From positions 1 to 64,000 of the forward strand of contig CAKZPD010000013.1 in assembly GCA_937138475.1 (NCBI GenBank): 64,000 bases of DNA, read 5' to 3'. Source of the DNA: an uncultured Sulfitobacter sp. Lineage in GTDB: Bacteria; Pseudomonadota; Alphaproteobacteria; Rhodobacterales; Rhodobacteraceae. Under the pieces are notes generated by a model. It did no database searches. It had not been told where the DNA came from and worked only from the letters and a program-made list of their open reading frames with translations. This document shows, piece after piece, positions 3,828-37,886 of the stretch (the first letter of the stretch is position 1; every line of letters starts with the position of its first letter). The translations under genes were made by a program, and so were the position numbers.

Positions 3828-4601
3828 ATGTTGCATTTTCAGATCCATGGCGACGCCACGAATACCCCTCCGCTGTTGATTGTTCACGGTCTTTACGGAT
3901 CGGGGCGCAATTGGGGCGTGATTGCCAAACGCCTGTCGGACGCGCGCCAGGTGATCACCGTTGATCAGCGCAACCACGGCAACAGCCCTTGGTCAGACCA
4001 GCACGATTACCCGGCCATGGCCAGCGATCTGGCCCAGCTGATTGACCATCTGGGCGCACCGATGGATGTGCTGGGCCATTCGATGGGCGGCAAGGCGGCA
4101 ATGGCGCTGGCGCTGACCCAACCCCAGATGGTGAACCGGCTGATCGTGGGCGACATCGCCCCTGTCTCCTATTCGCACAGCCAGCTGCAATTCATCCAGG
4201 CCATGCGCGCCGTTGATCTGGGCGCCGTCACCCGGCGCAGCGACGCCGAGGCACAATTGGCCCAGCAGGGCGTTGACCCGGCCTTGCAAAGTTTTTTCAC
4301 CCAGTCGCTGGATGTGCCGGGCAAGCGCTGGCGGCTTAATCTGGACGCCCTTGAGGCAAACATGCCGCATATCCTGTCTTTTCCGGCGTTCAGCAGCCGC
4401 TTTGACGGGCCCACATTGTTCTTGTCTGGCGCCCTGTCTGACTATGTCACGCCAGACTATCGCCCTGCGATCAAAGCCCTTTTCCCAAAGGCGCGCTTTG
4501 CCAAGCTGCCGGGTGCCGGCCATTGGCTGCATGCCGAAAAACCGCGCGAGTTCGAGGCCGCCATCCGCGCCTTTCTAAGCCTGACCGCCGCGGCGGCCTG
4601 A
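3828..4601 (+). CDS. Alpha/beta-fold hydrolase, YbfF-like esterase
   Basis: This roughly 257-residue cytoplasmic alpha/beta hydrolase has the strand-loop [14 protein letters not shown], the DQRNHGNS segment, the nucleophile elbow GHSMGGKAA and a C-terminal catalytic His in [11 protein letters not shown]. This pattern is closest to the YbfF-type esterases, which cleave short acyl esters; the natural substrate is unknown. The ATG at 3828 is preferred to an in-frame TTG six bases upstream. It has its own start region after the glyA terminator and is followed by the carB promoter. Confidence 0.85.
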
Positions 4602-4653
4602 AGCATCGGCCAAAAGAAACACATCAGCGGCCACGCATTGCCGTTTTCGCCCC

Positions 4654-4681
4654 TTGCACCCCGCCCGATGATGCCTATAAC
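4654..4681 (+). promoter_or_regulatory. Putative sigma70-type promoter of carB
   Basis: TTGCAC (4654-4659), a 16-base spacer and TATAAC (4676-4681) lie about 52 bases upstream of the carB start, between the hydrolase gene and carB. The predicted leader is about 45 nt and contains no evident attenuator. Confidence 0.6.
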
Positions 4682-4732
4682 GCAGGACAATTTGGACACA
4701 TGGGGGTGTTCAAAAAGCAAAGGGGCCGCGCC

Positions 4733-7700
4733 ATGCCAAAAAGAACCGATATCAAGTCCATCATGATCATTGGTGCAGGGCCCATTGTTATCGGACAGGC
4801 CTGCGAATTCGACTATTCCGGCGCACAGGCGTGCAAGGCGCTGCGCGAAGAAGGCTATCGCGTGATCCTTGTCAACTCGAACCCGGCGACGATCATGACC
4901 GACCCCGGTCTGGCCGATGCCACCTATATCGAACCGATCACCCCCGAGATGGTTGCAAAGATCATCGAAAAAGAACGCCCCGACGCGCTGTTGCCCACCA
5001 TGGGCGGGCAAACCGGCTTGAACACATCGCTGGCGCTTGAGGAAATGGGCGTGCTTGACAAATTCGGCGTCGAGATGATCGGCGCCAAGCGCGCCGCCAT
5101 CGAAATGGCCGAAGATCGCAAGCTGTTCCGCGAAGCGATGGACCGTTTGGGGATCGAAAACCCCAAGGCCACCATTGTTACCGCCCCCAAGAATGCCGAC
5201 GGCAAAAAGGATCTGGCGGCCGGCGTTGCCATCGCCCTTGAACAGCTTGACTATGTTGGCCTTCCGGCGATCATCCGCCCCGCCTTTACCATGGGGGGCA
5301 CCGGCGGCGGTGTCGCATATAACCGCGAAGATTATGAATTCTTCTGCCGCTCGGGGATGGATGCCTCGCCCATGGGGCAGATCCTGGTCGATGAAAGCCT
5401 GCTGGGGTGGAAAGAATACGAAATGGAAGTGGTGCGCGACACCGCTGACAACGCCATTATCGTCTGTTCGATCGAAAACGTCGATCCGATGGGTGTCCAC
5501 ACCGGCGACAGCATCACCGTGGCCCCTGCCTTGACGCTGACCGACAAAGAATACCAGATCATGCGCAATCATTCGATTGCCGTGCTGCGGGAAATCGGTG
5601 TGGAAACCGGCGGATCGAACGTGCAATGGGCGGTGAACCCGGTTGACGGCCGGATGGTCGTGATCGAAATGAACCCGCGCGTGTCGCGATCTTCGGCGCT
5701 TGCGTCCAAGGCCACCGGATTTCCGATTGCCAAGATCGCAGCCAAACTGGCGGTTGGCTATACCCTGGATGAGCTGGACAACGATATCACCAAAGTCACC
5801 CCGGCCTCATTCGAACCCACCATCGACTATGTTGTCACCAAAATCCCAAAATTCGCCTTTGAGAAATTCCCCGGATCATCGCCCAATCTGACCACCGCGA
5901 TGAAATCGGTGGGCGAAGCGATGGCCATCGGCCGGACGATCCACGAATCCCTGCAAAAGGCGCTGGCCAGCATGGAATCGGACCTGACCGGGTTTGATGA
6001 AATCGACATCCCCGGTGCGCCGGACAAGGCGGCGCTGATCAAGGCGATCTCGCTTCAAACCCCGGACCGGATGCGCACCATCGCCCAAGCCATGCGCCAC
6101 GGCATGTCAGACGATGAAATCCACGGCGTCACCATGTTTGACCCTTGGTTCCTGGCCCGTATCCGCGAGATCATCGAAGCCGAGGCCCAGGTGCGGGCCG
6201 AGGGCCTGCCCCGCGACGAAGCCGGTGTGCGGGCCCTCAAGATGATGGGCTTTACCGATGCGCGCCTGGCCACCCTGACCGGCCAAAGCGAAAGCGCCGT
6301 ACGCGCCGCGCGCCGCGGCTTGAACGTCGTGGCCTGCTTTAAGCGGATCGACACCTGCGCCGCCGAATTCGAAGCCCAGACCCCCTATATGTATTCCACC
6401 TACGAAGCCCCAATGATGGGCGAGGTCGAATGCGAAGCCCGCCCATCAGACCGCAAAAAGGTGGTCATCCTTGGCGGCGGCCCGAACCGGATCGGCCAAG
6501 GGATCGAATTTGACTATTGCTGCTGTCACGCCTGCTATGCGCTGACGGATGCCGGCTATGAAACCATCATGGTCAACTGCAACCCGGAAACCGTTTCGAC
6601 CGATTATGACACGTCGGACCGGCTTTATTTCGAACCGCTGACCTTTGAACATGTGATGGAAATTCTGCGGGTTGAACAGGAAAACGGCACCCTGCACGGG
6701 GTGATTGTTCAATTTGGCGGCCAGACACCGTTGAAAATCGCCGCTGCGCTGAATGCCGAAGGGATCCCGATCCTTGGCACCACCCCCGATATGATAGATC
6801 TGGCCGAAGATCGCGAACGGTTTCAGAAGCTGGTTCAGGAACTGGGCCTGCTGCAACCGCGCAATGGCATTGCCCACTCCGATCAAGAAGCCCTTGATAT
6901 CGCAGAAAATATTGGCTTTCCGCTGGTGATCCGCCCTTCGTATGTTCTGGGCGGGCGCGCCATGGAAATCGTCCGCGATATGGCCAGCCTTGAACGCTAT
7001 ATCACCAACGCGGTGGTGGTGTCGGGCGACAGCCCTGTTTTGCTGGACAGCTATCTGTCCGGCGCGGTCGAACTGGATGTAGATGCGATCTGCGATGGCC
7101 AGGACGTGCATGTGGCGGGCATCATGCAGCACATCGAAGAGGCCGGCGTTCATTCGGGTGACAGCGCCTGTTCCCTGCCGCCCTATTCGCTTTCGCGCGA
7201 TGTGATTGAACAGATCGAACAACAGACCCGCAAGCTGGCTTTGGCGCTGAATGTTGTCGGCCTGATGAACATCCAGTTTGCCATAAAAGGTGACGATATC
7301 TATCTGATCGAGGTAAATCCACGCGCCTCGCGCACGGTGCCCTTTGTTGCCAAAGCCACAGACAGCGCCATTGCATCAATCGCGGCACGCGTTATGGCCG
7401 GCGAAAAGCTAAGCAGCTTTCCCAAGCGCGCGCCCTATGCGACGCAAACCGATTACAACGATGTGTTGCCCCTGGGCGATCCGATGACATTGGCCGACCC
7501 AAATATGCCTTGGTTCTCGGTCAAAGAGGCGGTTTTGCCCTTTGCCCGGTTCCCCGGTGTTGACACGCTGCTTGGCCCCGAGATGCGCTCAACCGGCGAG
7601 GTCATGGGATGGGATCGTGATTTCCCCCGCGCCTTCCTCAAGGCTCAGATGGGGGCGGGAAATTCGCTGCCACGCGGCGGGCGGGCGTTTTTGTCGATCA

Positions 7701-23510: not shown

Positions 23511-24257
23511 CTAGGTGCTGCGCAATGGCAGCCGCACGATCATCTGGGTGCCGCGCTTGCGTTTGCCATTGGGCCGGGCCGAGGCGCTGCCGCCATAGCG
23601 TTCGGCGATCTTGCGCACAATCGCAAGGCCCATGCCGCTGCCTTCCACCTCGTCGCGCGGGCGCAGGGTGGCCATCGCCGCAAAGACCCTTTCGTGATGC
23701 TCATCCGCGATGCCGGGCCCGTCGTCTTCGACTTTGATCACCGCCTCGTCCTTGTCGGCCGAAACCGTCACACGGATTGTTCCCCTGGGCTTGTCGTGAT
23801 GTTTGAACGCGTTTGAAATCAGCGCGGTGAACAGCGTCAGGATATCGCGATTGCCGATCTCGATGGTGATATCATCAACTTTTTGTTCAATATCAAATCC
23901 TTGCGGGATATATATTTCATCCAACACCTCTGTCACCGCGTCGCGCACCTGCACGGGGCCAATGGTCTGCATATTGCCAATGCGCGAATAAACCAGCAAA
24001 TCCACCAGCATCCGGTCCAACCGCGCGGTGTGCCGGTTCATCAGATCCAGCGTCTTGGCGACCGATCCTTCGATCTTGATCCCGGCGTCCTTCATGTCAT
24101 CCGCCAGCCATTGCGGCAATTCGATCAAGGCCCGCACCGATCCACGCACGTCGTGGCTGATCAAATAGACGAAATCCTCAAATGTCTTTGAGACTTGCGC
24201 GGCCGGATCGACCTTGTCTTCTTGTCGCGCGTCATCTGGTGGGCTGTTCTTATTCAT
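23511..24257 (-). CDS. Soluble sensor histidine kinase (HK2)
   Basis: This 248-residue kinase has no membrane segment and no recognisable sensor domain beyond a short N-terminus. His35 in YLISHDVRGSVR is the phosphoacceptor. The ATPase domain shows SNAFKHHDKPRG (N box), DDGPGIADEHHER (G1) and EGSGMGLAIVRKIA (G2). These boxes closely match those of the membrane kinase at 25840. GAGG precedes the ATG at 24257. It follows the binding-protein gene by 49 bases on the same strand. Confidence 0.9.
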   Translation of the reverse strand: MNKNSPPDDARQEDKVDPAAQVSKTFEDFVYLISHDVRGSVRALIELPQWLADDMKDAGIKIEGSVAKTLDLMNRHTARLDRMLVDLLVYSRIGNMQTIGPVQVRDAVTEVLDEIYIPQGFDIEQKVDDITIEIGNRDILTLFTALISNAFKHHDKPRGTIRVTVSADKDEAVIKVEDDGPGIADEHHERVFAAMATLRPRDEVEGSGMGLAIVRKIAERYGGSASARPNGKRKRGTQMIVRLPLRST

Positions 24258-24306
24258 GTTTCGCCTCGTTTCCAATTTTCCATCCTCAACCCCGTCAGGC
24301 TATACT

Positions 24307-25782
24307 TTAGGATGTATTTCTCAACCATTGCGATACTTTTTGTGGGTATTTTTCGCGCAAAAGTGTCCATCGTTTAATTTGCTGTGCCCGTCCCGATCGC
24401 GAGGTTATCAGCTCCCACAGCTGGGCGGCGCGGGTCATCGCCTGGGGCGCGGTCAGCGTGCCCGCGACGGCCTGGGCAATCGCCTCGTCCAGCACCCGGA
24501 AATATTCAGCCTGATTTTTCAGATACAGGTCCGGGATCGCGTCGATCATGCCTTGGCGGTGGACCTGCAGCAACGCATCGCCATAGACCTGTTGAATTGC
24601 CGGGTCGGCATAGTGTTCTTCGCGGAAGGGGTCGAAAAACCCGCCGATTTGTCCCACCGAAAGGGTCGAGATCACCGGGCTGGCGGCGAAAAGGCAATAA
24701 AGATAGGCCAGCTCGGGACGGTCGGTCGAGGCGCTGACCACATAGTTTTTACCCCAGTTGAAATATGAACAGGGAAAATACGCACCGGTTTCTGGGTCTT
24801 GGCCGCCCGGCAAGCCAGAATTCACAATCGCATTGGGGTCGAAAAATTCGCTGCGTTTAAACAGTTTGTGCGCGCCGCCCCAACCGATGTTACTAAATAT
24901 GTTTTGTTTGAAAAATACGTTCCAATTTTCGAAAATCGACGCCTGATTTGTTGCGGGATGCAAATATGCGGTGGCCCGAACCATATCCTCAAGGGCTTCT
25001 ATTCCGGCATCACCGCCGATCTGCGCATCCATCTGCGGTGAAAACGGCCACACCCCCTTGGCGTGAAAGCGGCTCCACCATTCCCAGGCGAAATAACCGG
25101 GAGTGCGAAACATCAACCCGCCATATTGATCCTGATCGGGGCGGTGAAACCACCGCATCTGTTGGTCCAACTCTTCCCAAGTAGACGCAATCCCCAGCGG
25201 CACCCCAAAGCGGTCCGCATAGGCGGCCTGTTCATCGCGGCTTTCCAGAAATGCCCGCTTGTAATACATCAAATAAACATCGCCATCTGTCTGAAATCCA
25301 AAGTATTTTCCATCAAACTTATCCGCGACATTATACAGTGATCCGTCGCGAAAACCGGGCGGTTCATAGGTATCGACGAAATGATCAAAGGGTTGAATAA
25401 CCCCGGTGCTGGCCAAATCCGGCAGGCCGTTGCTGGTGGGCAGGCCCACATCGAACGCCACGTTTCCCGTCATTGCCAACAAGCTGATCCTTGTGTTCAA
25501 ATTCAGTGGATTTTCCTCGACCAGCTGCACCTTTATGCCTGTCAGCTCGTGGAACTTGGCCATCACCGGGGCAAGGTTGGCCCCCGCCCCATTCGGCCCC
25601 AACAGGACCAACGGCCGCGTATCCCCGGCCGCAACCCGTTTGGCATGTTCCGCGGCCACCAGATGCAGCGGCCGGCCCTGCGCCATCGCCGCCCCCGGCA
25701 AAGCCGAGGCAAGAACCCCGCCGGCAATCCCCCTGACCACAGCCCTGCGATTTGGTCCTGCATTTTGATTGCCGCCGCCCAT
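24307..25782 (-). CDS. Tat-exported ABC-type solute-binding protein without permease
   Basis: This 491-residue protein has a twin-arginine signal (NRRAVVRGIAGGVLASALPG, ending near AMAQG), so it is exported folded to the periplasm. The mature part fits the family 1 extracellular solute-binding proteins (sugar-type): VEENPLNLNTRI, YFGFQTDGDVYLMYYKR and STWEELDQQMRW. No permease or ATPase gene is adjacent; the neighbours are two kinases and a response regulator. A sensory role is therefore inferred. AAAGGG supports the ATG at 25782. The ligand is unknown. Confidence 0.85.
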   Translation of the reverse strand: MGGGNQNAGPNRRAVVRGIAGGVLASALPGAAMAQGRPLHLVAAEHAKRVAAGDTRPLVLLGPNGAGANLAPVMAKFHELTGIKVQLVEENPLNLNTRISLLAMTGNVAFDVGLPTSNGLPDLASTGVIQPFDHFVDTYEPPGFRDGSLYNVADKFDGKYFGFQTDGDVYLMYYKRAFLESRDEQAAYADRFGVPLGIASTWEELDQQMRWFHRPDQDQYGGLMFRTPGYFAWEWWSRFHAKGVWPFSPQMDAQIGGDAGIEALEDMVRATAYLHPATNQASIFENWNVFFKQNIFSNIGWGGAHKLFKRSEFFDPNAIVNSGLPGGQDPETGAYFPCSYFNWGKNYVVSASTDRPELAYLYCLFAASPVISTLSVGQIGGFFDPFREEHYADPAIQQVYGDALLQVHRQGMIDAIPDLYLKNQAEYFRVLDEAIAQAVAGTLTAPQAMTRAAQLWELITSRSGRAQQIKRWTLLREKYPQKVSQWLRNTS

Positions 25783-25821
25783 ACCTAACCCTTTCGATAC
25801 CAACTATACGTTACTTGATTC

Positions 25822-25838
25822 AAACTTAAGATAAGTTT
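25822..25838. promoter_or_regulatory. Operator-like dyad AAACTTA-AGA-TAAGTTT
   Basis: It is a perfect inverted repeat with 7-base arms and a 3-base centre, in the 57-base AT-rich gap between the divergent binding-protein and membrane-kinase genes. It touches the predicted kinase start. It is a candidate shared control site, or a hairpin hiding that start. Confidence 0.5.
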
Positions 25839-25839
25839 A

Positions 25840-27822
25840 ATGATTAACACGCATATTGAAAAAATGAACACAGTTTCCCCCTTCCACGCCCCAATAACCG
25901 GTGGCCTGACGCGTATCGTCACGCGGTTGCGGATTGCTTTTCTTCTTGGGGTGATGGTGGTTGCGGCCGCCAGCGTCGCAGGGGTTTTTCAGGCCCGCGC
26001 CATCAGCAGGGCGCACAGCAACCTGGTTGACATCGACATACCGGTTTTCGCGCAAACCCATGAAACCATTCGGATATTGGATGATGTTTTTGCCGCCGTC
26101 GAATTGGCCACCGTTGCGCCGGATCAGCCGACATTGGACCAGATCCGCGATGATTACCGCGCCGCGCTTGAGGCGCTGAACACCAGCCTGCAAGACGCGC
26201 GCGCCTTTACCGACAGCCAGGATGTCTTGCAATCGGTCACCGCCGCGACGCAGGCGCTGCAATCGGCCATCGCGCCGCTGTTTGATATGAAAGCACAATT
26301 ATTTCAAAGCGATGACCGCATTCAGGCCATGATGCGTGACCTGGTCGATCTGCACAGCCGCGCCGGGCTGACGCTTGAGACGTTGAATTTTCAGACGACC
26401 GGGCGGATTGAAACCGTCCTGATGAATTCACGCGACGGTCATGCCCCCACGCCCGAGGTCATTCAACAGCTGTTCTCGAATCTTTTTCTCAGGTCACTGA
26501 ACCTGACCAATATCGCCCTTGATCTTGAGACCATCATCGATCTGACCTTTGGATTTCAGTTAAGCGAAACCTCTGAGGTGCCCGCCAGCAGCCGCGCGAT
26601 TCTTGAAAACAAGATGCGCCGGGTGGTTGCGGTCATGGCCCAGATCGAAACCGGACCCGAACGCACAACTTTGGCGCAGCTTGTGCAGCAGATGGATCAC
26701 CTTTTGTTTACCTCAGACGGGTTGCTGGCGCGCTTGGCCGATCGGGAACGGATATTGGCCGACCTTGAAGCCATCCGCAGTGCGCGCCAACAGATTGCCG
26801 ATAATTTCACCGCGCTGAACGATCGCATCAACACCGAGGCCCTGGCCCAGGTCGATCTGGCCTCGGGGCGGCTGGGGTCGGCGACCCTGCGGCTGATGGG
26901 GGTGCTGGGCGCTGCCGCGCTTGGCACTTTGGCGCTGGCGGCGCTGGCCAACCTGTTGATCACCGAACGCCAGATCAATCACCGGATGGACAGCCTGCAC
27001 CGTGCGGTGTCAGCCATTGCAGGCGGCACGCTGGATCACCCGATCGAAGTCACCGGCAAGGACGAGCTGGGCGACATCGCCCGTGCGCTGGCCGTGTTCC
27101 GCCAAACGGCGCTGGCGCTTGACCGCTCGAATGTGGATCTTGAGAATTTCGCCTATGTCGCCGCGCATGACCTGCGCTCGCCGCTGCGCGCGATCCATGA
27201 TCTGGCTGCCTGGTCCCTTGAAGACCCAGAAAATTCCCTGTCGGAAACCACGCAAAAATACCTTGCGCTGCTGCTGACCCGGACCGAACGGTTGGACAAC
27301 CTGCTGACCGATCTTTTGGACTATGCCCGCGCCGGGCAGAAATCCGGCGATGAGGGCCGGGTCGATCTGTCCGAGATGGTGCACCAGATCAGCAGCCTGC
27401 TGGATCAAAGCGGGGCCTTCCATGTTCATTACGACGGCCCGAACATGACCGTGATCACCCACCCCACCCCATTGAAACAGATTTTGATGAATTTGGTGTC
27501 AAATGCGATCAAGCATCACGACAAACCACAGGGCGAGGTGGTCGTAAAAGTGACCCACCGCGCCGGCCGCTTGCGATTTGCCGTGCATGATGACGGGCCG
27601 GGCATTCCCAAACAATATCAAGACCGGATCTTTGCCCTGTTCCAGACCCTGCGCCCACGAGACGAGGTAGAAGGCAGCGGGCTGGGGCTGGCGATCATTC
27701 GCAAACTTGTAAACCGCTATGACGGGCGCATCCGCGTCAGCTCGGACCCAGGCAGCCGCCGCGGAACGACATTCATCTTTGATTTTCCCGGAGATGCCCC
27801 GCGCTTTGAACCGACCACATAA
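25840..27822 (+). CDS. Membrane sensor histidine kinase with helical periplasmic domain (HK1)
   Basis: This 660-residue kinase has a first membrane segment at about 30-50, a largely helical periplasmic region at about 53-348 with no PAS or Cache motif, a second membrane segment at about 350-372, HAMP (373-425), and a dimerisation domain with His443 in YVAAHDLRSPLRAI. The ATPase domain has SNAIKHHDKPQG, DDGPGIPKQYQD and EGSGLGLAIIRKL. The layout recalls TorS, whose helical domain reads a periplasmic binding protein. The ribosome-binding site is weak. It stands 12 bases upstream of the response regulator. Confidence 0.92.
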   Translation: MINTHIEKMNTVSPFHAPITGGLTRIVTRLRIAFLLGVMVVAAASVAGVFQARAISRAHSNLVDIDIPVFAQTHETIRILDDVFAAVELATVAPDQPTLDQIRDDYRAALEALNTSLQDARAFTDSQDVLQSVTAATQALQSAIAPLFDMKAQLFQSDDRIQAMMRDLVDLHSRAGLTLETLNFQTTGRIETVLMNSRDGHAPTPEVIQQLFSNLFLRSLNLTNIALDLETIIDLTFGFQLSETSEVPASSRAILENKMRRVVAVMAQIETGPERTTLAQLVQQMDHLLFTSDGLLARLADRERILADLEAIRSARQQIADNFTALNDRINTEALAQVDLASGRLGSATLRLMGVLGAAALGTLALAALANLLITERQINHRMDSLHRAVSAIAGGTLDHPIEVTGKDELGDIARALAVFRQTALALDRSNVDLENFAYVAAHDLRSPLRAIHDLAAWSLEDPENSLSETTQKYLALLLTRTERLDNLLTDLLDYARAGQKSGDEGRVDLSEMVHQISSLLDQSGAFHVHYDGPNMTVITHPTPLKQILMNLVSNAIKHHDKPQGEVVVKVTHRAGRLRFAVHDDGPGIPKQYQDRIFALFQTLRPRDEVEGSGLGLAIIRKLVNRYDGRIRVSSDPGSRRGTTFIFDFPGDAPRFEPTT

Positions 27823-27834
27823 GGGAGTAACCGA

Positions 27835-28272
27835 ATGGCACCAAAAGCAACGACAGCCACTTTTCTGCTGGTGGATGATGACGATGTCAGCATCATGGCC
27901 ATGCAGCGGGCGCTGAAAAAGTTAAAGATCGTGAACCCCACGCTTGTCGCTAAGAACGGCCAAGAAGCCTTTGATATCCTTCAAGAAGCGGTCAAGAACA
28001 ATGGCGGGGTGCTGCCGCCGTTCATCGTGACGCTGGATCTGAACATGCCGCGTATGAACGGGCTTGAATTCCTTGAGGCCGTGCGCGCCGATGATGCCCT
28101 AAGCCGGCTGGTGATCTTTGTCTTTACCACCTCGGATGTGACGCGCGATATTCAGCTGGCCTATAGCCGGAACGTCGCGGGGTATCTGATCAAGGAAAAT
28201 CCCGGCGAAACGCTGAGCAAAGCCCTTGAAATGCTGGGAAGCTATGCCCGGATCGTCGAATTGCCAAGCTAG
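27835..28272 (+). CDS. Single-domain response regulator, Rcp1-like
   Basis: This 145-residue receiver has no output domain. FLLVDDDDVSIMAM supplies the acidic pocket, Asp68 in VTLDLNMPRMNG is the phosphoacceptor, and FTTSD and YLIKENPGE carry the Thr and Lys positions. The extended loop before the Asp (QEAVKNNGGVLPPFIV) is typical of the Rcp1 group that partners bacteriophytochrome-type kinases. GGGAG precedes the ATG. It is cotranscribed with HK1. Output must pass by protein contact or phosphotransfer. Confidence 0.92.
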   Translation: MAPKATTATFLLVDDDDVSIMAMQRALKKLKIVNPTLVAKNGQEAFDILQEAVKNNGGVLPPFIVTLDLNMPRMNGLEFLEAVRADDALSRLVIFVFTTSDVTRDIQLAYSRNVAGYLIKENPGETLSKALEMLGSYARIVELPS

Positions 28273-34156: not shown

Positions 34157-35320
34157 CTAGGCCGCAGGCATGCGTTGTTCAGCGATTTCCGCCCACCAGC
34201 TGCATCCTGCCGGAATGGCTTCGTCGTTGAAGTCATACATCGGGTGATGCACCATGGCGGTATCGCCATTGCCCACCAGAATATAGGCGCCGGGGCGTTC
34301 TTCCAGCATAAAGGCGAAATCCTCGCCGCCCATGACCAAAGGTGCATCCGCGCAATCGCCCGAGACTGACCGCGCCACCTGGGCGGCAAATTCGGTTTGT
34401 TCGTCGTGGTTCACCATCGCCGGGTAATTCCGGGAATAGTCGACCTGCGCCACAGCGCCAAAACTGGCGGCGATACCGGTGGCGATTTCGCCCAGACGCT
34501 TTTCCGCCAGATCCCGCATTGCCGGGTCCATGGTGCGCACGGTGCCGCGCAACTGCACGCGCTGCGGGATGACGTTGAACGCCTTGGACGAGGTTTCGAA
34601 GGATGTCACCGATACGACGATATTCTCGACCGGGTCGGCATTGCGGCTGGCGATGGTTTGAATCGCCAGCACGATCTGCGACGCCACAACGGTGCTGTCG
34701 ACTGTTTCATGTGGTTTTGCCGCATGGCCGCCCAGCCCCTCTATCTGAATGGAAAAGACATCTGTGGCGGCAAAGAACGGCCCCGGACGAATCGAGAAAC
34801 TGCCCACCGGCGCGCCGGGCCAATTGTGCATGCCATAGACCTCTTGGATGCCCCAACGATCCATCATGCCGTCGTCGCACATCTCTTTGCCGCCGCCGCC
34901 GCCTTCTTCGGCGGGCTGAAAGATCACCACCACCGTCCCATCAAAGTTGCGGGTTTCCGCCAGATATTTCGCCGCACCCAACAGCATGGCGGTATGGCCA
35001 TCATGACCGCAGGCGTGCATTGCCTCGGCGGTTTTTGACGCATGCGGCAAGCCGGTCTGTTCCTGCATGGGCAGCGCATCCATATCAGCCCGCAGGCCAA
35101 TAACCTTGCCCGACGCGGTGGATTTTCCCTTGATCACCCCGACAACACCGGTGCGGCCGATCCCGGTCACGACCTCGTCACAGCCAAATTCGCCCAGCTT
35201 TTCGGCAACAATCGCTGCGGTCCGATGCGTGTCGAACAGAATTTCGGGGTGTTCATGGAAATCACGGCGCCAGGCGCTGATTTCGGCCTGTAATTCGGCA
35301 AAGCGGTTCTTGACGGGCAT
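34157..35320 (-). CDS. M20 family amidohydrolase (copy A)
   Basis: This 387-residue dimetal hydrolase of the aminoacylase / hippurate hydrolase type has LRADMDALPMQEQTG, MHACGHDGHTAMLLGAA and IFQPAEEGGGGG. These carry the metal ligands and the catalytic Glu. The dimerisation insert GLGGHAAKPHE is present. It is cytoplasmic. It is a clear tandem paralogue of the next gene, sharing even the start MPVKNRFAE. Last gene of the minus-strand peptide-transport series, it probably cleaves N-acyl amino acids or related amides. Confidence 0.92.
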   Translation of the reverse strand: MPVKNRFAELQAEISAWRRDFHEHPEILFDTHRTAAIVAEKLGEFGCDEVVTGIGRTGVVGVIKGKSTASGKVIGLRADMDALPMQEQTGLPHASKTAEAMHACGHDGHTAMLLGAAKYLAETRNFDGTVVVIFQPAEEGGGGGKEMCDDGMMDRWGIQEVYGMHNWPGAPVGSFSIRPGPFFAATDVFSIQIEGLGGHAAKPHETVDSTVVASQIVLAIQTIASRNADPVENIVVSVTSFETSSKAFNVIPQRVQLRGTVRTMDPAMRDLAEKRLGEIATGIAASFGAVAQVDYSRNYPAMVNHDEQTEFAAQVARSVSGDCADAPLVMGGEDFAFMLEERPGAYILVGNGDTAMVHHPMYDFNDEAIPAGCSWWAEIAEQRMPAA

Positions 35321-35344
35321 AAGTCTTTCCTTCCTGAAGATAAA

Positions 35345-36511
35345 TTATAAGGCCGGCATCCGGCGTTCGACCATTTCGGCATACCAACTGCACCCAGCCG
35401 GTATGGCGTCATCGTCAAATTGATATTCCGGGTGATGGACCGTGGCGCCATCGCCATTGCCCACCATAATATAGGCGCCGGGGCGTTCTTCCAGCATAAA
35501 GGCGAAATCCTCGGCAGCCATGATCGGGGGGATATCGCGCAGCACATGGCCGGCCACTGCCTTGGCGGCGTCTGCGGCAAACCCGGTGTTTTCCAAGGTA
35601 TTGACCGTTACAGGATAGCCAACTTGATAGGCGATCTGCGCCGTGCAGCCATGGGCCTGCGCCGTCGCGGTGGCGATCTGGGTGATCTTGTCTTGCACCA
35701 GGGCGCGCACGCCCCCCTCAAGCGCCCGCACGGTGCCGCGCATCACAGTGGTTTGCGGAATGACGTTATGGGCCTCGGTTGCGGAATGCAGCGCACAAAC
35801 CGACACGACCACTTGTTGCAAAGGGTCCACCACCCGGCTGGCGATGCTTTGCAAGGCAATCAACACATGCGCTGCCGCCAGATTGGGATCAATCGCATCA
35901 TGTGGCGCCGCAGCATGACCGCCCTTGCCGGTCACGGTGATCTCAAATTCATCTGCCGATGCCAAAAGCGCACCGGGCCGAATGGCAAATTCACCTGTCT
36001 TGATACCGGGCATGTTGTGCATCCCGTATACCTCCTGGATGCCCCAGCGGTCCATCAGCCCATCGCGGCACATTTCCCGGCCGCCGCCGCCGCCTTCTTC
36101 GGCGGGCTGAAAGATCAACACAGCCGTGCCATCAAAATTGCGCGTTTCCGCCAGATATTGCGCCGCGCCCAGCAACATGGCCGTATGGCCATCATGGCCG
36201 CAGGCGTGCATTTTGCCGGGGTGCTGGCTGGCATACGCAAGCCCCGTCGCCTCATGGATGGGCAGCGCATCCATATCGGCCCGCAGGCCGACAACACGGC
36301 CCCGGCTGTCGCTTTTGCCGTGGATCACCGCGACAATGCCCGATTGCCCGATGCCCGTGGTGATGTCATCCACCCCAAAGCTGCGCAGCTTTTCCTCAAC
36401 AAAGGCGGTGGTTTTGGGCAAATCGAATTGCAGCTCGGGGATGCTGTGCAAATGGCGCCGCCAGGCGGTGATCTGGGCATGGGTTTCGGCAAAGCGGTTC
36501 TTGACAGGCAT
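35345..36511 (-). CDS. M20 family amidohydrolase (copy B)
   Basis: This 388-residue paralogue of copy A has LRADMDALPIHEATG, the same MHACGHDGHTAMLLGAA, and IFQPAEEGGGGG. The ATG at 36511 (MPVKNRFAE) is chosen because copy A starts identically; the frame reaches 36589 without similarity. The two copies differ most in the dimerisation domain and in substrate-side segments, which suggests different acyl or amino-acid preference. They are 24 bases apart. Confidence 0.92.
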   Translation of the reverse strand: MPVKNRFAETHAQITAWRRHLHSIPELQFDLPKTTAFVEEKLRSFGVDDITTGIGQSGIVAVIHGKSDSRGRVVGLRADMDALPIHEATGLAYASQHPGKMHACGHDGHTAMLLGAAQYLAETRNFDGTAVLIFQPAEEGGGGGREMCRDGLMDRWGIQEVYGMHNMPGIKTGEFAIRPGALLASADEFEITVTGKGGHAAAPHDAIDPNLAAAHVLIALQSIASRVVDPLQQVVVSVCALHSATEAHNVIPQTTVMRGTVRALEGGVRALVQDKITQIATATAQAHGCTAQIAYQVGYPVTVNTLENTGFAADAAKAVAGHVLRDIPPIMAAEDFAFMLEERPGAYIMVGNGDGATVHHPEYQFDDDAIPAGCSWYAEMVERRMPAL

Positions 36512-36539
36512 AGCGGTTCCTTTGGTTATTGGTTGCGGC

Positions 36540-37886
36540 TTAGATCGACGGCCCCAAGCGCATAGCTGAGCCATCAAAGAACCGGCCATAGCGGAAGCGT
36601 GTCAGATCATGGCCGGGGGCCTCGCCCATGGCAAGGGCCGCCAGAATGCGCCCCATCGCCGGGCCGATGCCAAAGCCGTGGCCGCTCATCCCGGTGCCGA
36701 CGGTCAAGCCGGGCACCGCGGCAATACGGTCCACCACCGGAACGATATCGGGCATAGTGTCGATCATTCCGGCCCAGGCCAACTTGATCCGCACCGGCCC
36801 CAAATCCGGAAACAGCGCCGAAAACCGCCGCTGAAGCTGACCGATCTTGGCGCGGTTCGGGGCCGGGTTCAAAATGCGCATCGCCTCGAAGGGTGATCCG
36901 TCACCTGGCGACCAGCGCCGCGCCGTGCCCCACCCATCGGGATAGCCGGGCGGGGCAAATGGCAAAAGGCGCACCCCAAAGGGATCTGATGCCAATTGCC
37001 GGCGGTATTTGGGCAGCGCCCGAAAGGCATCCGGCCCAACAAACAATTCGCTAAAGCCCCCAACCGCCAGCGAATACCCCCCATCAGCGCGGGCGCGAAA
37101 CGCCAGCCGGTTGTCGGCGGCCCCGCCCCCATAGGGCTGTGGCAAGGGGTGGGTCGCGGCCACCGTGGCGCGCACTGACAATTGCGGCAAGGCCACGCCA
37201 AGGTTTTGCAAGAACAGCGATGACCAGGCCCCGCCCGCCAGAACCACTTGGGGCGTGGCAATGCGCCCTGCTTCGGTAAAGACCCCGGTCACCCGCCCGG
37301 CCGACAGATCCAGGCCACGCACCGCGCAATTCTCAATCAGATGCGCCCCTTCGCGCGCGGCCAACGCCGCCAAGGCTGGCACTGCGGTCCAGGGTTCGGC
37401 CCGCATATCCCCCGGCGCAAACAGCGCCCCGGCATACCGCCGCGACATGCCCGGTATCAGCCGGGCCAATTGCGTGCCATCCAACACACGCGCCTGTGCG
37501 CCCAAAGGTTCGGCGCGCGCAAGCCATTGGGCATATCCTTCGACTTGTCGCTGACTGTGGCCCATATAGGCGATCCCGCCCTGGACCAAATTGATCTGCC
37601 CCGGCGCCGCAGCGGCCAACTCGCGCCACAGTTGCTGGGCCTCGGCCACGATGGGGATTTCATCATAATCACGGCCCAGCTGACGGATCCACCCCCAGTT
37701 GCGGCTGGATTGTTCGCCCGCGATGCGCCCCTTTTCCGCCAAGACCACACGTTTGCCCCGCCGCGCCAGAAACAGCGCTGTGCAAACGCCAATGATACCG
37801 CCGCCAATCACCACCACGTCGGCCTGCTGGGGCGGCGGGCCGGGATAGGCAATCGGGGTCAGCTCATTGATGGGAAACAGGCTCAT
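36540..37886 (-). CDS. FAD-dependent oxidoreductase, D-amino-acid-oxidase (DAO) type
   Basis: This 448-residue flavoprotein starts with a Rossmann FAD site VVVIGGGIIGVCTALFLARR. SSRNWGWIRQLGRD follows near the flavin, and GTGMSGHGFGIGPAMG lies at the C-terminal FAD loop. The DAO superfamily includes glycine/sarcosine oxidases, D-amino acid dehydrogenases and opine oxidases. The neighbours (peptide transporter, deacetylase, aminoacylases) point to an amino acid or N-substituted amino acid. No transmembrane segment is seen. Confidence 0.9.
   Translation of the reverse strand: MSLFPINELTPIAYPGPPPQQADVVVIGGGIIGVCTALFLARRGKRVVLAEKGRIAGEQSSRNWGWIRQLGRDYDEIPIVAEAQQLWRELAAAAPGQINLVQGGIAYMGHSQRQVEGYAQWLARAEPLGAQARVLDGTQLARLIPGMSRRYAGALFAPGDMRAEPWTAVPALAALAAREGAHLIENCAVRGLDLSAGRVTGVFTEAGRIATPQVVLAGGAWSSLFLQNLGVALPQLSVRATVAATHPLPQPYGGGAADNRLAFRARADGGYSLAVGGFSELFVGPDAFRALPKYRRQLASDPFGVRLLPFAPPGYPDGWGTARRWSPGDGSPFEAMRILNPAPNRAKIGQLQRRFSALFPDLGPVRIKLAWAGMIDTMPDIVPVVDRIAAVPGLTVGTGMSGHGFGIGPAMGRILAALAMGEAPGHDLTRFRYGRFFDGSAMRLGPSI

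Follow-up and report, generated by a model that had tools for sequence, protein, structure and literature searches.

A four-gene island at 23511-28272 of the window (the whole 64,000-nucleotide stretch of Sulfitobacter DNA analysed here) probably encodes a chemosensor with three components that is similar in kind to TorT/TorS, in which a solute-binding protein (SBP) of a different class takes the place of TorT and to which an accessory kinase has been added. The preliminary description had proposed that the SBP is the receptor for the membrane kinase HK1, as TorT is for TorS. This proposal gained support because the linkage between the SBP and the sensor is conserved without permeases, the SBPs concerned belong to a single sensor clade, and the sensor of HK1 is of the TorS type by profile and fold.

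Organisation and conservation of the island

The four genes were all found as previously outlined, HK2 and the SBP being encoded on the minus strand and HK1 and a receiver divergently from them. The HK2 open reading frame (23511-24275, minus strand) opens with TTG at 24275, and the likely start is the ATG at 24257 (gene 23511..24257), whose Met is invariant among the relatives. Similarly, the SBP frame (24307-25803, minus strand) opens with TTG at 25803, and the likely start is the ATG at 25782 (gene 24307..25782), which has AAGGG upstream. In the sequence, a divergent intergenic region of 57 bp (25783..25839) lies between this start and HK1 (25840..27822, plus strand), a membrane histidine kinase with the order TM1, TorS-type sensor, TM2, HAMP, HisKA and HATPase_c. 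The stand-alone Rcp1-like receiver of 145 aa, a Response_reg protein with Asp68 as predicted phospho-acceptor, follows at 27835..28272 (plus strand). A family scan identified the flanks of the island as an EamA exporter and ribD and, in line with the preliminary description, no permease or ATPase adjoining the SBP; purE and purK, recognised from their translations without a family search, are located further out. No second SBP of the same family was found in the window genome, and scanning the island for promoters and terminators gave matches at chance level only. The GC content at 24000-28000 was 54-59% as compared to 61-66% in most flanking kilobases, which fits an old transfer or a relaxed composition of the island. 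Elsewhere in the window, two adjacent and very alike ORFs (34157-36589, minus strand; MPVKNRFAE...) seem to be tandem copies of an amidohydrolase-like gene.

An alignment query against 84,980 species genomes yielded 80 named SBP loci (numbered with L below); a single-sequence query against the same contigs yielded none. A two-TM histidine kinase was adjacent to the SBP at 61 of the 80 loci, of which 58 were assigned automatically and three divergent ones (L048, L098, and L099) were recovered by translated search. The 58 automatically assigned partners comprised 52 divergent and six tandem arrangements, and 34 of the 52 divergent loci encode a receiver directly downstream of the kinase and in the same orientation. 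Permeases or ABC ATPases were present at ten of the 80 loci, either as two permeases and two ATPases or as the part of this set that the contig held. Not one locus (0/80) had both a kinase and permeases adjacent, and no permease was found beside a sensor-clade SBP in the census loci. A conserved permease pair beside the SBP, which had been named beforehand as evidence against a signalling role, was thus confined to the outgroup clade. At L067, a divergent sensor protein carries HAMP-GGDEF-EAL in place of the kinase, and at L094 the part of the sensor that remains before the contig stops still scored 81.7 bits to the sensor HMM. The partner loci of L072 and L116 are apparently frameshifted, and at L051, L053, L059, and L091 the contig ends a few hundred bases from the SBP on the side where the partner is expected; L101 is the only partnerless locus to which neither a contig end nor a frameshift applies.

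The same four-gene order as in the window recurs in other genomes; therefore, the arrangement is not a product of chance. The junction between HK2 and EamA was also observed in several Roseobacter and Sulfitobacter loci, and in the complete genome that holds L026 it is accompanied by purE and purK. About 6% of the family genomes hold a relative of the SBP with 37-49% identity (17 of 296 at E 1e-30, including a few of the transporter type; 18 of 293 at E 1e-60). Rarity or scrambling in relatives had also been expected to speak against the idea: the distribution is indeed patchy, but the gene order is kept. The linkage between SBP and sensor is maintained across alpha- and gammaproteobacteria and Bdellovibrionota. 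At L093 (2511-4075) and L100 (1704-4006), from Allgaiera and Defluviimonas, an extra receiver and a 360-aa kinase, possibly another accessory kinase, are encoded upstream of the SBP-kinase pair.

The binding protein and its transporter relatives

Pfam matches of the window SBP were limited to SBP_bac_8 (PF13416, 5.6e-13) and SBP_bac_1, and its AlphaFold model (pLDDT 90.5) aligned with oligosaccharide-, alditol-, and sulfoquinovose-binding SBPs in the PDB at Z scores of 36-38. Fold and Pfam family are those of an ABC-transporter SBP, and cognate permeases and ATPases are missing beside the window gene and its sensor-clade relatives. A tree of 83 SBPs required one change only: the kinase-linked proteins were parted from the permease-linked ones by one branch (SH-aLRT 99), the transporter types forming the outgroup and the next branches. 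The SBP appears to have changed from a transport to a signalling role a single time, and early. A twin-arginine signal is present in the window SBP, in 61 of 64 sensor-clade relatives, and in 13 of 14 relatives of the transporter type, so that Tat export probably dates back to the ancestral transporter SBP. About 70 positions are identical in at least 93% of the sensor SBPs and at least 90% of the transporter SBPs, and systematic differences between the two are restricted to four alignment columns, one of which is a gap column; hence, the ligand class may well have been retained when the role of the SBP changed.

These common positions would also be expected if the SBP took part in uptake with permeases from another part of the genome and stood beside a kinase owing to co-regulation only, and so would the finding that its closest kin beyond the sensor clade are genuine transport proteins, whose loci encode two permeases and two ATPases. 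Such a role is very unlikely, however, considering that no sensor-clade locus has an adjacent permease, that the sensor clade is a single branch apart from the transporter SBPs, that the partners have a TorS-type sensor, whose fold is known from proteins that read SBPs, and that the same sensor is joined to GGDEF-EAL in the partner at L067.

The operons of the transporter clade have in common a histidinol-dehydrogenase-like gene that is nearest to HpsN (sulfopropanediol dehydrogenase), the homologues scoring 410-456 bits against HpsN and about 240-258 bits against the best true HisD. The sulfonate-recognising residue that marks HpsN is His126 in CpHpsN numbering (PMC11382572). At this position, the seven transporter-clade homologues all have Leu, within GGKYPL, and Lys353 is kept. 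Dihydroxypropanesulfonate (DHPS) was dropped as a candidate ligand on account of this replacement in 7/7 homologues, and given the kept Lys353, another small hydroxylated or anionic substrate is possible. Co-occurrence with HpsN was uninformative because 209 of 293 genomes matched at the threshold used. Members of the HpsN-related GGKYPL subfamily, which is tied to transporter-type SBPs, are encoded at L065 (662-1960), L076 (476-1768), L077, L078, L080, L090, and L092 (1590-2876). In addition, a conserved protein of 370-395 aa with no significant Pfam or NCBIfam match is encoded downstream of the transporter-type SBP operon at L065 (12537-13694), L076 (12561-13739), and L096 (12570-13676).

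The sensor domain of HK1

HK1 matched HAMP, HisKA (27139..27336), and HATPase_c (27463..27789) in Pfam, and neither PAS nor Cache. The predicted phospho-acceptor, His443 in AHDLRSPLRA, is invariant in the alignment of the partners. Two TM segments enclose 301 residues, and the periplasmic loops of the partner proteins are nearly all of 270-320 residues, with about 215 in Bdellovibrionota. The AlphaFold (AF2) model of the sensor domain (about residues 50-351; 25987..26892, plus strand) is all-helical, with a mean pLDDT of 93.1. The best six Foldseek matches of this model were all TorS (top E 3.8e-5), and VIA-align placed five TorS entries at Z scores of 18.4-19.6 with 229-268 residues aligned. 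A profile of the sensor region against PDB sequences also returned TorS first (9.9e-10, 6.6e-8, and 9.1e-8); the next match was a designed coiled coil (2.5e-4), and only TorS was matched over its full length. The periplasmic region, which had been described from the letters alone as largely helical, about 300 residues long, TorS-like, and without PAS or Cache motifs, is thus a TorS sensor domain by both profile and modelled fold. Pfam TorS_sensor_domain (PF21689) scored above its threshold in 7 of 58 partners, the window HK1 remaining below, and one iterated HMM took in 51 of 57 partner sensor regions. Reversed and shuffled controls of this HMM reached at most 5.6 bits, and 33 of 47 real sequences outside the seed exceeded 8 bits.

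Next to TorS in fold are McpS-type two-bundle domains (Z about 15.7; McpS 15.7), which bind ligands directly, and HK1 might likewise sense its own ligand, as NarX or McpS does, with the SBP modulating this response or scavenging. This possibility is very unlikely, since TorS scores higher (Z 18-20) and provides the only full-length profile matches, and since the linkage to the SBP persists in alphaproteobacteria, gammaproteobacteria, and Bdellovibrionota. The partial correlation of the distances of SBP and sensor given the kinase was 0.57 (maximum of 0.21 in label permutations), and that of SBP and kinase given the sensor was 0.40. The part that stays with the SBP is the sensor, as seen from L067, which keeps the divergent TorS-like sensor but has HAMP-GGDEF-EAL and no kinase. 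Adjacency and co-divergence of the SBP and the sensor would nevertheless fall short of proving contact between them.

Within the same bacterial order, the HK1 sensor profile also detected TorS beside TorT at L155 and PgtB-like kinases at L156 (6657-10117), L158 (7568-10853), and L159 (6757-9959). The PgtB-like loci matched NF047794 at 5e-62 (L156) and 1.1e-53 (L159); SBP_bac_6/11 binding proteins are neighbours at L156 and L159, and a PgtA-like regulator is a neighbour at L158. The sensor tree grouped the three PgtB types in one clade and set off the window family from the rest by two changes with modest support; the sensor trees have shallow support and long branches. Judging from the gene neighbourhoods, TorS-type sensors are paired with at least three SBP classes, namely TorT, PgtC-like proteins, and the class of the window SBP.

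Signal output and comparison with known systems

The 145-residue receiver matched Response_reg alone, and its nearest solved structures are phytochrome-associated regulators of the Rcp/RcpB type. It keeps the acid pair D15 D16, D68, T98, and K120; among 40 relatives, D68 and K120 are present in all and D15 in at least 39. The earlier suggestion that the output passes through this stand-alone receiver is backed by its position in the 34 of 52 divergent loci and by these conserved phosphorylation residues, which make it a likely phosphoryl acceptor. There is a Rhodobacterales precedent for a single-domain receiver that controls CckA-ChpT-CtrA in another manner: Osp of Rhodobacter sphaeroides lacks the acidic residues before helix 1, is not phosphorylated, and inhibits CckA (PMC9430884). 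The island receiver could similarly inhibit another histidine kinase in place of a phosphoryl relay, but this is unlikely since it and its relatives keep the acid pair, Asp68, Thr98, and Lys120. Its identity with Osp itself was rejected on the acid residues, which are present here and missing in Osp (PMC9430884).

The kinase cores differ among sub-branches that have a common SBP and sensor. Kinases of the HDLRSPLR type go with an Rcp1-like receiver and those of the HE(V/I)RTP type with a CheY-like one, and hybrid kinases that include a receiver also occur. As far as the encoded domains tell, the output is swapped within the family among a histidine kinase plus stand-alone receiver, a hybrid kinase, and GGDEF-EAL. 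The L067 protein (4345-6924, minus strand), from a gammaproteobacterial MAG, has a TorS-like sensor, HAMP, and intact GGDEF and EAL motifs, and is a possible SBP-controlled c-di-GMP enzyme.

HK2 matched HATPase_c (1.4e-23) and weakly HisKA, and has no TM segment and no sensor domain. Its H-box, SHDVRGSVRA, departs from the canonical H[ED]xx[ST]P by replacement of the proline. This proline is missing in all 19 members of the HK2 clade, most of which keep the N, G1, and G2 boxes. The 19 HK2s formed one clade (99) nested among the HK1 kinase cores; 16 other kinases of the window genome taken into the tree were placed separately. By this placement, HK2 is a paralogue of the HK1 kinase core and would have arisen by duplication of that core in Rhodobacterales; we infer that it still prefers the same receiver, with an altered kinase/phosphatase balance. 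HK2 is absent from most of the SBP-sensor family and is thus not essential to the scheme. Its descent from the HK1 kinase core, the lack of a sensor, and the loss of the H-box proline in 19/19 with the other boxes mostly kept would suit a protein that is chiefly a phosphatase or a dominant heterodimer partner of HK1 and that tunes or silences the receiver, as opposed to a second kinase input. The H+4 residue typical of phosphatases is N or T, whereas the window HK2 has G and several copies have S, A, or G at this position; on this evidence, the phosphatase or partner role is quite possible, if somewhat short of probable.

In the proposed mechanism, the Tat-exported SBP would bind a small hydroxylated solute in the periplasm and, either ligand-bound or free, would dock on the helical TorS-type sensor of the HK1 dimer. 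The docked SBP would shift HK1 between kinase and phosphatase states via TM2 and HAMP, and HK1 would phosphorylate Asp68 of the stand-alone receiver, which would act by protein-protein contact and not by DNA binding. HK2, as a sensorless copy of the HK1 kinase core, may act on the same receiver and provide a second, cytosolic arm.

The island resembles TorT-TorS-TorR of E. coli and Vibrio in that a dedicated SBP is encoded divergently from a membrane kinase and in that the sensor domain is of the same family and fold as that of HK1. On the other hand, TorT is a type I Peripla_BP protein (Peripla_BP_1 in the TorT control; TIGR02955 type) and the island SBP is SBP_bac_8, the hybrid kinase TorS also contains REC and Hpt (TorS control) and HK1 is a plain HAMP-HisKA-HATPase_c kinase, and TorR is an OmpR-type DNA-binding regulator in contrast to the receiver-only protein of the island. 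Furthermore, no torCAD or tor reductase genes are linked to the island, whose neighbours are EamA and ribD, and HK2 is an extra kinase. PgtC-PgtB-PgtA, which serves phosphoglycerate sensing, likewise combines an SBP, a two-TM kinase, and a regulator, but differs from the island in its SBP_bac_6/11-type PgtC, its sigma-54 type PgtA-like regulator, and its separate sensor branch. HK1 scored 76.8 bits against the PgtB model NF047794 (cut-off 1000) with the best stretch in the kinase core, and no sigma-54 regulator (PgtA, NF047793) was found at the island. Rcp1 and other phytochrome-associated receivers are stand-alone and structurally closest to the island receiver, although their partner is a phytochrome and that of the island receiver is an SBP-linked membrane kinase.

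An SBP also acts as a signalling co-receptor in LuxP-LuxQ. The same applies to AioX-AioS (PMC5908839) and GlnH-GlnX (PMC6069109), and all three pairs differ from the island in the class of the SBP and in the type of sensor or output. The preliminary description regarded a sugar-family SBP with two kinases and no DNA-binding output as new. A two-component system beside an SBP of the sugar family is in fact known from CuaD-CuaS-CuaR of Ruminiclostridium cellulolyticum, in which the carbohydrate-family SBP CuaD reports to the adjacent kinase while another SBP transports, and in which CuaD binds the ligand and the isolated sensor domain of CuaS does not (PMC10384115). The claim is narrowed accordingly; CuaDSR has a different sensor fold (modelled as alpha/beta, not TorS-like), a DNA-binding output (CuaR, AraC-type), and one kinase (PMC10384115). 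The literature searched, whose incomplete coverage makes this weak evidence, contained no example of a carbohydrate-class SBP combined with a TorS-type sensor, a lone receiver, and a second kinase without a sensor, and nothing relevant on an SBP-kinase family in roseobacters.

On balance, we lean slightly towards the view that a carbohydrate-class ABC SBP was converted once to a TorS-sensor co-receptor, now in several phyla, that its output was rewired repeatedly, and that duplication of the kinase core in Rhodobacterales gave rise to a further kinase, which has neither a sensor nor the H-box proline and uses the same receiver, and thereby to a two-kinase chemosensor with no DNA-binding output. 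Solute-binding proteins are normally predicted as transporters, and annotation pipelines would label the window SBP a sugar transporter subunit. The change from transport to signalling can be assigned to a branch of the tree, and related bacteria hold both states, which would allow a step-by-step study. The TorS sensor fold would be a general docking module: it occurs beside at least three unrelated SBP classes, and its output side can be a kinase or a c-di-GMP enzyme. A large share of the SBP-sensor genes occur in marine roseobacters and bear on the question which phytoplankton cues these cells perceive, and the island would show how an uptake protein has been turned into a dedicated part of a signalling system.
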